From Rhizobiaceae bacterium (GTDB taxonomy: Bacteria; Pseudomonadota; Alphaproteobacteria; Rhizobiales; Rhizobiaceae), in the NCBI GenBank assembly GCA_014238155.1, contig JABABQ010000047.1, positions 1 through 64,000 of the forward strand: a DNA stretch of 64,000 nt, given 5' to 3'. The notes under the pieces are model-generated. The model searched no databases. It was not told where the DNA came from and saw only the letters and a program-made list of their open reading frames with translations. The first letter of the stretch is position 1, and each line of letters starts with the position of its first letter. Shown one piece after another: positions 16,442 through 46,339 of this stretch. The position numbers were made by a program, and so were the translations under genes.

Positions 16442-17245
16442 ATGCTTTATCTGCGCTCGCTTCTGTTTAACATCGCCTGGTACATCAATATCCTGCTTCA
16501 TATGGTTGTGCAGTTGCCTTGGTATTTCTTTCTCAGCCATGAAGCTGCTCAAAAAGTGCCCAGACGCTGGACGGCCTCCACTCACTGGCTGCACAGGATC
16601 ATCGTCGGCACAGATATAGAAATAGTCGGCGAAGAAAATATGTTGGATGAAGGTTGCATAATTGCTTGCAAGCATCAGTCGGTATGGGAGTTCTATGCGG
16701 TCAATTCGATGGCCCGTGATCCAGCCTTCGTGCTGAAGTCTGAATTGATGAAGATTCCGTTTTTTGGCTGGTATGTTTCCAAACTCAGACACATTCCCAT
16801 TCGTCGCGGTGACAAGGGGCGCGCCATGCGTCGGATGATCTCGGTTGCCCGGGAACGCATCGATGAAAGGCGTCAGATCATCATTTTTCCCGAAGGCACC
16901 CGAAAATCTCCTGATCAGGAAACCGATTACCGCTATGGCGTAACCCGTATGTATATGGATCTCAAATGTCCGGTGGTACCGGTTGCGCTGAATTCCGGAC
17001 TGTATTGGCCGCGGCGTAAATTTTTGCGCTACCCTGGGACGATCCGCACCAGGATTCTGGAACCCATCATGCCGGGCCTGTCAGCCAAGGAATTTGCGGC
17101 TGAACTGGAACGACGCATCGAGGAAGCCTGTGACGAACTCTACCTGTTAGCGTCCCAAGACAAAGTTCATCCACCGCTGAACGAGGCTGTTCTGGCACGG
17201 GCAGAGAGAGCAAAAAAACGTCTGGACAATTTTCCAGACAGTTAG
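16442..17245 (+). CDS. 1-acyl-sn-glycerol-3-phosphate acyltransferase (PlsC family)
   Basis: CKHQSVWEFYAV block and IIFPEGTRKSP block; N-terminal TM. Confidence 0.88.
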   Translation: MLYLRSLLFNIAWYINILLHMVVQLPWYFFLSHEAAQKVPRRWTASTHWLHRIIVGTDIEIVGEENMLDEGCIIACKHQSVWEFYAVNSMARDPAFVLKSELMKIPFFGWYVSKLRHIPIRRGDKGRAMRRMISVARERIDERRQIIIFPEGTRKSPDQETDYRYGVTRMYMDLKCPVVPVALNSGLYWPRRKFLRYPGTIRTRILEPIMPGLSAKEFAAELERRIEEACDELYLLASQDKVHPPLNEAVLARAERAKKRLDNFPDS

Positions 17246-17248
17246 TTT

Positions 17249-17287
17249 GTTCTTGTAATGTTCTGTTAATATGTTCTATCTATGTTC
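17249..17287 (+). promoter_or_regulatory. Two LexA-type boxes (GTTC-N7-GTTC): 17249-17263 and 17273-17287
   Basis: GTTCTTGTAATGTTC and GTTCTATCTATGTTC match the alphaproteobacterial LexA direct-repeat consensus exactly; located between the plsC-like stop and ATG 17307. Confidence 0.78.
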
Positions 17288-17306
17288 TCCTAAGGAGGAG
17301 AACAAT

Positions 17307-17744
17307 ATGGCCCCAGCTGCCCAATTGACCGAATATGTTCAAACCAGTTTGCCACTGGTGGTGCCTCCAACAACCGCAGGTCCCCTGGGTTCACCGAACA
17401 GGCTTTGCAACACCGACCGGGCTTTCCCCACTCCGCGGATGATCAAGTCTGTTGTTGACGAGGCCGGACTTGGAAAATTTGTGTATCTTCAAGGTGCTTC
17501 CGGGCGACGTTATGTATTTTCCTCAATTCGCCGTGAGCAAGCCAGTCTTTATGACAGGGCTCTTTTTGCCGCAACCAGTTGTCCCGACGCGGGCGGGCAA
17601 AGCGTTGAAATCGCGCCATGTCTTGAAGATATATCCAACTATACGGGGGCGATTTATGTGCACCTTCTGGATGACGAAGATTCGCAGGGCGCTCAGACTC
17701 TCGAAGATTTGTGCACGGCCAACCAGAGTCAGATTGCATCCTGA
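17307..17744 (+). CDS. Hypothetical protein, putatively SOS-regulated
   Basis: Strong SD (GGAGGAG) before ATG 17307; 145-aa ORF with no family recognised; LexA-type boxes upstream. Confidence 0.7.
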   Translation: MAPAAQLTEYVQTSLPLVVPPTTAGPLGSPNRLCNTDRAFPTPRMIKSVVDEAGLGKFVYLQGASGRRYVFSSIRREQASLYDRALFAATSCPDAGGQSVEIAPCLEDISNYTGAIYVHLLDDEDSQGAQTLEDLCTANQSQIAS

Positions 17745-17749
17745 CCGGT

Positions 17750-19168
17750 TCAGCCAATCCGATAGGCATCCTTGGCGGCATCAAGACATAACCAGTGTGC
17801 AATTTCGCTGGCATCCAATTTACCCAATGTCTTACCTGTCACCATGTGGGCCAAAAAGCTGCACACGCATCGTCGCCAGACGTCATGGCGCGCCGGGATT
17901 GACAGCAGCGCTCTTGTGTCGTCGTTGAACCCAGCCAGATTGTGGAATCCGGCTGTCTCCACCATGCCATCCAGATAACGGGCGATGCCCCTTGGACTGT
18001 CGTGAAACCACCAGGGCGGCCCCAACCGCAATGCAGGCCAATATCCAGCCAGCGGTGCCAATTCACGGGTGTAGACGGTCTCGTCAAGGCCGAAGAACAG
18101 CACTCTGAAATTTTCAACAAACCCATACCGTTGAAGCATTGGTTCCAGTCCCGCCACCGGGTCGACAGGTGTGGGGATATCTGCACCGAGATTGGTGCCG
18201 AAATTTTTCACCAACCGCGGATCTGTGTTGCGGCGGGAGCCGGCATGAATTTGCATCACCATACCATCTTCGCAGGACAGGCCGGCCATTTCGGTCAGCA
18301 TCTGTGCACGAAACAGTTCGCTGTCGTCAGGTCGTTGATCGCCGCAGAGAATGCGGGTTAGCAAGTCCTGCTTGGCGGCATTGGGCAAATCGACAGTGCG
18401 AGCCGATGGCACGCCGTGGTCAGTTGCACTTGCACCATGTTGCCTGAAGAAAGATCGGCGAATGCGATGGGCTTCGATCAAGCCGTCCCAACCGGCAATG
18501 TCCTGATTGGTCAATTCGCCCACCGCGCGGATATTGCTCTGAAAATCAGCATGGTCCGGGTCAGTGATGTCGTCAGGCCGGTAGGTTGTGGTGATGCGCG
18601 AAGACAGGCCGCTTTGCTTCAATTCCGCATGGTGGGAAAGTGGATCGAGAGCGAATTCGGTTGTTGCAATATAATCAACACCGGCTTTGTCCAGCAGCGC
18701 CAGTGGTCGACAATCATCCTCCTGTAACCGGCTGGTGATGAGTTCGAAATATTCGTCGGCATTATGCGGCGCCAGCGGCGCTTCGATACCAAATGCCCAG
18801 TTCATCGAATGATCGATCCATAGCCGAGACGGCGTGCCCAAAAAGCGATGATAATTGTTTGCGAAAATTCCCCATGCAGCCTTGCCTGATGCGCCCCTTT
18901 TTCCGTCGCTTCGCGGCACCCCCAGATCCTCATAGGATACACCGTGACTGAACAACATGCGCAGCACGTAGTGATCAGGCGTCAGGAAAAGATCGGCTGC
19001 ATCACCCATAGGTTGATTGTTGGCAAACCATTGCGGGAGCGTGTGGCCGTGAGGGCTGATAATCGGCAGGTCGGTAACGCCCTCATATAGCTCTCGTGCC
19101 ATTTTCAATACAGGGACTTCCGTCGGCAACAAGCGATCGGGATGCAGGAAGGTATCAGACAAATTCAT
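17750..19168 (-). CDS. uxaC: Glucuronate (uronate) isomerase
   Basis: DLPIISPHGHTLPQWFA, GMVMQIHAGSRRNTDP, YWPALRLGPPWWFHDSPRG. Confidence 0.94.
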   Translation of the reverse strand: MNLSDTFLHPDRLLPTEVPVLKMARELYEGVTDLPIISPHGHTLPQWFANNQPMGDAADLFLTPDHYVLRMLFSHGVSYEDLGVPRSDGKRGASGKAAWGIFANNYHRFLGTPSRLWIDHSMNWAFGIEAPLAPHNADEYFELITSRLQEDDCRPLALLDKAGVDYIATTEFALDPLSHHAELKQSGLSSRITTTYRPDDITDPDHADFQSNIRAVGELTNQDIAGWDGLIEAHRIRRSFFRQHGASATDHGVPSARTVDLPNAAKQDLLTRILCGDQRPDDSELFRAQMLTEMAGLSCEDGMVMQIHAGSRRNTDPRLVKNFGTNLGADIPTPVDPVAGLEPMLQRYGFVENFRVLFFGLDETVYTRELAPLAGYWPALRLGPPWWFHDSPRGIARYLDGMVETAGFHNLAGFNDDTRALLSIPARHDVWRRCVCSFLAHMVTGKTLGKLDASEIAHWLCLDAAKDAYRIG

Positions 19169-44809: not shown

Positions 44810-46339
44810 TTAACGTTTGGCCAGAGCGCGGTTTCGCGCCCCCGGTTTTACCAGCCATTTCAACAAAGATTTGGCGCGAAACAAGTCCAGATTTGGTGGT
44901 TGAATTTCTGCGTTGCCAGTCATTCGTGCGGATTTTATCTGACGTTCAATCGAACAAATTTCTGCTGAGTCAGGCGACCAGCGCCAATAGGCTGATGCAT
45001 TCTTTATACTGACCATCGGATTGTTGATTTTCAATGGAACCGGCTTTGAACAACTGTTTGCAGATTTTGATTTCCAGATGGTGTCAGCTTCCAAAAACAA
45101 CACGCTGGCCTGTGGAGCCGATGCCCTGATCTGATCCAGCAACTGGTCCCTTCCATTGCCAGGCTGGCTTTTGGTTTCGGGCAATGCGTCGGGAGAGCCG
45201 GTCGATGCCTGATCAACAATGATCAGATCAGGAGCCAATTGCCGCACGTCATTGGCAAGCAGGTCGGGATCATATTTTGAAGTTTTTTTGTCGTTCGCAA
45301 CATCGAGCTGGAAATCCATGTAGCGGATCCCTGCGCCGGATTTGCCTGAATGCCAGTTCATAACACCTGTTCTGGCACCGCCTCCAGGTGTCAAAGTGGC
45401 GGATTTTGAGTGGGCATTAAGTTTGAACAGCTTTGATCCGGGAGATTTGGCGTAGGCGTCAAACTTCTTTTCAACACCGCCAGCCTTCAGCGTGAATGTG
45501 CCCTGTGAAGGACCTGTAGCAACGGTCACTCCGACCCAGTCAAACGGGTCCGACTGGCTGGTAAATGTCACCGACGACATCGAGGATCGGGACGAAAGCC
45601 GCATGCCGGAGAGGCCAAATCCCGGCTTGCCCTGCCGTCTGGTCACCAGTCTGCGCCATCTGCCTGTTCGGGTAAGTTCGAACCGGTCCGCTTGAGATTG
45701 ATATCTGTTGCGATTCGGAGAAATCATACCGTGACCGGCATCGCCATAGAGTTTTTTCAGCCCTTCGCGCATTCCCCGCTGAAAGTGTTCCGAACTCTGT
45801 TTGCTTCTCGCAACGTGTAAAATGGTCAATGGCTGGGATTTTGCTTTATTGGTTAGGAGAGCAAGACCTTGGTAAAAGTGGTTGAGTGGATCTCTCGCTT
45901 CGCCTGCAGAAGCTTTCGGATTGATACTGCCAACGATCTCGCCGGAAACAGCGGCCGCTGACGCCCGCACTTCTTCTGAATTGGGGTCGATCACCAGAAC
46001 TTCGCGCGATAGCAAGACCTTCCGCTGCCGCTGCAGTGCCGGTCGGAGTTTTTTCAGATTGGCCTTTGATATTGAAGTTATGTTGCTGGTCAGATCCACT
46101 TTCTGAGCGATCAGTCCGTCGGCCAATTGTTCAAGAATTTTCGCCCGCGACGGCGAATTGATCTCTGTCGCAAACGCCTTCGGTGCGTTTGTCAACGGGT
46201 GGAATGCTGTCAACGCCAATGCTGAGCACAGAAGTGGCGCCAAGGTCGATGTAAGAGAAACTCGGGTCATCGCCAGTCGAACGCTTTCGTAATTGAACAC
46301 CAGTGTCGACGGGACAATCAGCCGACACATATGGTTCAA
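44810..46339 (-). CDS. Exported SGNH/GDSL-hydrolase-like protein (peptidoglycan O-acetylesterase-like)
   Basis: Signal peptide; LYGDAGHGMISPNRNRY block, DLIIVDQASTGS block. Classification tentative. Confidence 0.5.
   Translation of the reverse strand: MNHMCRLIVPSTLVFNYESVRLAMTRVSLTSTLAPLLCSALALTAFHPLTNAPKAFATEINSPSRAKILEQLADGLIAQKVDLTSNITSISKANLKKLRPALQRQRKVLLSREVLVIDPNSEEVRASAAAVSGEIVGSINPKASAGEARDPLNHFYQGLALLTNKAKSQPLTILHVARSKQSSEHFQRGMREGLKKLYGDAGHGMISPNRNRYQSQADRFELTRTGRWRRLVTRRQGKPGFGLSGMRLSSRSSMSSVTFTSQSDPFDWVGVTVATGPSQGTFTLKAGGVEKKFDAYAKSPGSKLFKLNAHSKSATLTPGGGARTGVMNWHSGKSGAGIRYMDFQLDVANDKKTSKYDPDLLANDVRQLAPDLIIVDQASTGSPDALPETKSQPGNGRDQLLDQIRASAPQASVLFLEADTIWKSKSANSCSKPVPLKINNPMVSIKNASAYWRWSPDSAEICSIERQIKSARMTGNAEIQPPNLDLFRAKSLLKWLVKPGARNRALAKR

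Follow-up and report, generated by a model that had tools for sequence, protein, structure and literature searches.

Is the small gene that follows a plsC-like gene in a Rhizobiaceae contig part of the SOS response and, if so, what kind of protein does it encode? The window analysed here is the whole stretch of 64,000 nucleotides at positions 1 to 64,000 of contig JABABQ010000047.1. A first-pass annotation, made from the letters of this DNA, had placed two exact GTTC-N7-GTTC boxes between the stop codon of the plsC-like gene (end at 17245) and the ATG (17307) of a 145-aa ORF ending at 17744. Both the boxes and the ORF were reproduced at these coordinates. The features of the locus, all on the plus strand, are the following:

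16442..17245, plus strand: PlsC-like acyltransferase, the upstream gene (Pfam PF01553, E=4e-23), part of a conserved ydcF-plsC-gene-chaC order.
17249..17263, plus strand: LexA-type box 1, GTTCTTGTAATGTTC, an exact GTTC-N7-GTTC match that is also exact in 10 of 11 same-genus orthologs.
17253-17258, plus strand: candidate -35 element TTGTAA, inside box 1, read by eye.
17273..17287, plus strand: LexA-type box 2, GTTCTATCTATGTTC, an exact match that resembles the box kept across the order (consensus GTTCTATNTTTGTTC).
17277-17282, plus strand: candidate -10 element TATCTA, inside box 2, with an 18-bp spacer from the -35 element, read by eye.
17292-17299, plus strand: Shine-Dalgarno-like element AAGGAGGA, 7 bp 5' of the ATG, recognised from its sequence.
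17307..17744, plus strand: CDS of 145 aa, a putative LexA-regulated, GIY-YIG-derived protein without the catalytic residues (assigned from the ORF, homology and the catalytic-column table).

An in-frame ATG at 17271 (157 aa) was rejected as the start because it lies inside the operator and because, in some orthologs, stops interrupt the frame between it and the later start. A perfect inverted repeat (GTCTGGA-CAATTT-TCCAGAC, window positions 17220-17239) is present in the last part of plsC, directly ahead of the operator, and is a possible weak terminator between plsC and the 145-aa gene. The gene is embedded in the conserved order ydcF - plsC - gene - chaC, with chaC on the reverse strand, and in another set of families in the order nrdJ - gene - chaC; except for plsC of the window, these neighbours were named by eye from sequence. 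In the window itself, a uronate isomerase-like gene (by eye; 17750-19168, minus strand) occupies the position that chaC has in most relatives, including most of those of the same genus.

A lone GTTC-N7-GTTC box is not a rare sequence. The window contains three exact boxes, which is at chance level (mean of 1.92 after shuffling, and at least three in 31 of 100 shuffles), and the third one, at 45037-45051 on the minus strand, shows no sign of function. The first-pass annotation had regarded a high frequency of the motif at random positions as evidence against its reading. A genome-wide scan gave 147 exact boxes, compared with 109 for the reversed control pattern, so that lone boxes are indeed common, whereas the conserved pair is above chance: it is the presence of two boxes 24 bp apart, start to start, together with their conservation, that stands out. 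Because a single exact box is common in the genome, the evidence must therefore rest on conservation.

The gene is present in 11 of the 14 genomes of the same genus (G001-G014). All 11 orthologs are preceded by at least one exact box, and 10 of them by both boxes, 24 bp apart; in the ortholog of G006, box 2 is exact and box 1 carries one changed base (GTTC-N7-GTCC). A homolog search of G014 found none; this genome is a single contig of 0.9 Mb that is 98% complete, and the rest of the genus has genomes of 2.4-4.8 Mb. Using a profile of 13 proteins of the genus (A1), we identified a single homolog in each of 114 genomes, out of 398 searched in the order. Families and genera carry numbers here, f1 being the family of the window; two of the orthologs are named, a Hyphomicrobiales MAG and a Rhizobiaceae MAG. 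The same search of about 290 genomes of the same class outside the order did not reveal a homolog.

Loss of the boxes in front of orthologs had been set beforehand as a result that would count against LexA control. An exact box was found just upstream of the gene in 93 of the 109 loci examined, which represent 45 of the 48 genera and 19 of the 20 families covered, so that LexA control withstood this check. As a control, 394 kb of DNA flanking the same 109 loci, both strands included, contained 13 boxes, and from this density about 0.3 of the 48 genera would be expected to have a box by chance, where counting by genus lowers the contribution of shared ancestry and does not fully remove it. The upstream boxes of the order-wide loci yield the consensus GTTCTATNTTTGTTC, which by its sequence is the alphaproteobacterial LexA box, GTTC-N7-GTTC being the operator described for Alphaproteobacteria (PMC8565304).

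Known SOS genes served as controls. An exact box is located within 350 bp 5' of lexA in 29 of the 30 genomes of the order tested. In the genome of the window, GTTC-N7-GTTC precedes lexA. It also occurs in the interval that separates uvrA from ssb, ahead of an imuA-like gene and close to a dnaE-like gene, all four of these genes being named by eye from translations. As to whether recA, lexA and imuAB of this genome carry the same box, the answer is divided: the boxes of lexA and the imuA-like gene are exact, whereas recA has only near-boxes with one mismatch. In the same genome, two exact boxes 36 bp apart (L163, G000:C33:134105 and 134141) lie near a dnaE-like ORF, and an exact AT-rich box, GTTCCTATTATGTTC (L171, G000:C46:965-979), adjoins a SocA/Panacea-like ORF, which is possibly a further LexA target; both ORFs were named by eye.

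The prediction of a damage-induced gene under a LexA operator is thus strongly supported, both by the conserved boxes and by the controls at lexA, uvrA/ssb and imuA. An operator is located at the putative promoter, it is conserved before orthologs, and LexA is present, with a boxed gene of its own. We regard LexA control of the 145-aa gene as very likely. The operator is the single line of evidence on expression, and from it we infer that the gene is induced by DNA damage; the tight repression that had been proposed would follow from the overlap of the boxes with a plausible promoter.

Some lineages (genus g62 of family f34, and lineages of f12, f33 and f2) contain LexA and have no exact box at this gene. 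The possibility that they are boxless for want of LexA was rejected, as LexA is present there and its own gene is boxed. These lineages seem to have departed from the regulon, or never to have been members. The g62 orthologs (L108, L116, L118, L129, L133, L134, L145 and L148) have no LexA box upstream; instead, all 8 have the sequence YGATTCG shortly 5' of the gene, compared with 7 of 101 elsewhere, and TTGACA-like elements precede it. The YGATTCG element resembles a CcrM/GcrA-type cell-cycle site.

We then turn to the protein. Pfam and NCBIfam searches with the window protein and 50 homologs found no matching model, and PDB sequence searches with the same proteins were likewise fruitless. The hits that did appear, to Spexin, DUF3928, HUTI or methan_mark_11 (a single one) and RNA-binding protein 12 (E=0.28), were dismissed as not credible. 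The viral contigs searched contained no relative, a phage search with an intact relative gave no match, and literature searches on LexA regulons and GIY-YIG proteins found no description of this family. The earlier statement that the protein belongs to no recognised family is correct insofar as there is no Pfam or NCBIfam model, yet the family can be connected to GIY-YIG endonucleases through intermediates.

A search with a wider profile of the family (A2) retrieved relatives beyond the core set, with GIY-YIG-like domains behind the same WxGxSGxxY hairpin. Moreover, the core members L113 and L137 match a Bradyrhizobium barranii protein annotated as 'GIY-YIG nuclease family protein' (WP_231146028.1; 31% identity to L137 over 106 aa, E=1e-6). 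When A2 was compared with a profile of ten intact relatives (A5), a probability of 98.9 and a score of 104 were obtained, against scores of 22.4 for the reversed control and 19.8 for the best of 60 shuffles. A5 itself retrieves UvrC GIY-YIG structures (1ycz, E=7e-5), and the intact relatives, too, score below the Pfam gathering threshold. For A1 alone against GIY-YIG, the probability was only 56% and the score 31 (shuffles at most 16, reversed 20). Homology is thus established at the level of the family and is weaker for the window genus alone, whose predicted link to GIY-YIG proteins is a chain that runs from the window genus to the order family, to the intermediates and to the intact GIY-YIG proteins. 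AlphaFold models from three sequences were poor (pLDDT 45 and 54), with a helix predicted at the expected position of the GIY strand. Taken together, the sequence and profile comparisons indicate that the family very probably descended from a GIY-YIG endonuclease domain.

Five segments of the window protein bear on what is left of this domain and on what surrounds it:

17340..17357, plus strand: QTSLPL, residues 12-17, a predicted clamp-binding-like motif in the variable N-terminal tail (from sequence; compare QLSLPL of Hda).
17478..17522, plus strand: hairpin motif FVYLQGASGRRYVFS, residues 58-72, the best-conserved part of the family (alignments A1 and A2).
17556..17576, plus strand: RALFAAT, residues 84-90, relic of the GIY strand, with the catalytic Tyr changed to Phe (catalytic-column table).
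17655..17672, plus strand: YVHLLD, residues 117-122, with the invariant His119 (alignments and catalytic-column table).
17694..17711, plus strand: QTLEDL, residues 130-135, counterpart of the GIY-YIG RxxxExDL helix, with the catalytic Glu column changed to Leu (catalytic-column table).

In the ten relatives of A5, Tyr, Gly, Arg, His and Glu are invariant and the second Tyr and Asn nearly so, and the intact relatives read Y, Y, G, R, H, E, N in the column table. The intermediates (f31, f12, f2 and f25) mostly retain the first Tyr and Glu and have neither Arg nor Asn, and most LexA-controlled members have no Arg, Glu or Asn. The window genus is the most degenerate, with a change in every column of the catalytic set (Tyr, Tyr, Arg, His, Glu and Asn). 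The catalytic residues therefore decay stepwise across living homologs. What the family retains are G63, S65, G66, R68 and Y69 of the hairpin, which precedes the domain with the pattern [W/L]-x-G-x-S-G-x-R-Y, plus H119 and D134. With its catalytic columns lost, the protein of the window genus is most probably devoid of nuclease activity.

An intact relative from outside the order (L183) adjoins nrdJ, as does one degenerate branch, and this shared neighbour therefore suggests that the nuclease is the ancestral form. In the core tree, box-carrying groups and intact groups are clustered and many forks are unresolved, which leaves the number of gains and losses unsettled and the polarity unproved.

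The tails of the proteins carry two further signals. Hda binds E. coli DnaN tightly through QLSLPL, the general consensus being QxxLF (PMC12309361). Clamp-type peptides (QxxLF, QxxLPL) were found in the tails of 15 of 121 proteins, compared with 1.2 after shuffling, at a density of 2.9 per 1000 aa versus 0-0.7 in neighbouring proteins. They are confined to a minority of lineages, and their position alternates between the N- and the C-terminus. Docking of the window protein on the sliding clamp via QTSLPL is a real possibility, to which we give slightly less than even weight. An Ala-Ala C-terminus is present in 22 of 48 genera but in only 1 of the 107 neighbour proteins compared (Fisher p=2e-12); the window genus does not have it. 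Such ends resemble the C-terminal signal read by ClpXP, and the members that carry them may be cleared by ClpXP-type proteolysis.

The explanation that we favour overall, and consider likely, is that the gene encodes an SOS-induced GIY-YIG pseudo-nuclease, probably a repair accessory associated with DNA or with the clamp. LexA bound to both boxes would cover the promoter; upon DNA damage, RecA-triggered cleavage of LexA would free the promoter and the 145-aa protein would be made. This protein would be a pseudo-enzyme, in which a GIY-YIG domain, alike in fold to the N-terminal domain of UvrC, lies behind the conserved hairpin, its catalytic residues gone. The domain may keep its binding surface without the chemistry, and the protein may act as an accessory that does not cut but binds to DNA structures or to a partner in repair. 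In the lineage of the window, QTSLPL in the flexible N-terminal tail would recruit the protein to sites of replication and repair via the clamp; in many relatives, outside the window genus, the Ala-Ala end would serve to clear it after the damage. The first-pass annotation had held that the sequence does not say which function the protein has. This can now be narrowed, as GIY-YIG descent and tail motifs make an accessory of repair or replication a better candidate than a division inhibitor or a nuclease toxin, although for an accessory as against a division inhibitor or a replication brake we put the chances at about even.

In Caulobacter, SocB sits on the sliding clamp and slows down forks, and the 145-aa protein could be an SOS-induced brake of the same kind. 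The clamp-type tail motifs and the degron-like ends of many lineages would suit such a role; the motif, however, is limited to a minority of lineages, and a clamp-binding peptide alone leaves the conserved core unexplained, so that we consider a brake unlikely. Also unlikely, in our opinion, and slightly more so, is a cell-division inhibitor built from a recycled fold, which would play the part of SulA, SidA or YneA. A small, LexA-regulated protein with a degron-like Ala-Ala end in many lineages would fit a short-lived checkpoint protein, and the cell-cycle-like element of g62, where the LexA box is absent, also speaks for this reading. Against this, the protein originates from a nuclease domain, the clamp-type motifs point to the replisome, and inspection of the translation by eye found no long hydrophobic segment that could be the counterpart of the membrane segment of SidA and YneA.

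The protein might also be an endonuclease that is still active because its catalytic residues have been rearranged. E. coli Cho (YdjQ) is an SOS-induced GIY-YIG nuclease that cuts DNA and is UvrC-like over a longer region. SOS control and GIY-YIG ancestry are common to Cho and the window protein, and the box-carrying relatives of f31 g59 retain Glu and partly also the first Tyr. The window protein, however, is short (145 aa), with neither the UvrC-like length nor the intact site of Cho, all six catalytic columns are changed in its genus, and no substitute catalytic set is evident among the invariant residues; we therefore hold an SOS incision enzyme to be very unlikely here. Finally, that the boxes arose by chance or serve another regulator, with the gene outside SOS control, is hardly credible, because the frequency of lone boxes in the genome is outweighed by the lexA controls and by the fact that 45 of 48 genera have kept the box at the same position.

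Among known systems, the proposed SOS-induced pseudo-nuclease is nearest to the GIY-YIG domain (PF01541), of which the UvrC N-terminal domain is the nearest solved example (1ycz, 1yd0-1yd6). The likeness lies in the order of elements, the conserved residues of the intermediates and the profile match; the differences are the lost catalytic residues, the conserved N-terminal hairpin and the stand-alone length of 145 aa. WP_231146028.1, encoded on B. barranii plasmid pCC829_3, has the same hairpin and the same ..HIHMLAETDAER..E.D.. end as the family, but it retains Y, Y, R, H, E and N. ImuB, a Y-family polymerase that has no catalytic activity and makes contact with the clamp (PMC11791113, PMC10421592), shares the idea of an SOS-induced dead enzyme at the clamp, although its fold is unrelated and the clamp contact is here only predicted. 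In Bacteroidetes, a GIY-YIG domain-containing exonuclease is under LexA-type motifs (PMC8565304), which likewise places such a domain in an SOS-like regulon, but with a different LexA motif.

As the SOS operator is found at this gene in 19 of the 20 families examined, the gene probably belongs to the core damage response in much of the order, and yet it is without a family model. The series from intact to dead homologs allows one to ask when and why a nuclease joined LexA control and lost its chemistry. More tentatively, and with more doubt than confidence, we propose that across the Hyphomicrobiales a GIY-YIG nuclease became a short-lived protein under LexA control, which does not cut but docks on the clamp and steers or restrains replication and repair after damage, as a core SOS component of the order. 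If this were true, the route from an intact enzyme to a dead one would still be readable in living genomes. A separate observation concerns L191 (family f2, g101), an intact-looking GIY-YIG relative with the exact box GTTCTAGATATGTTC upstream, which is possibly an active, LexA-controlled nuclease.
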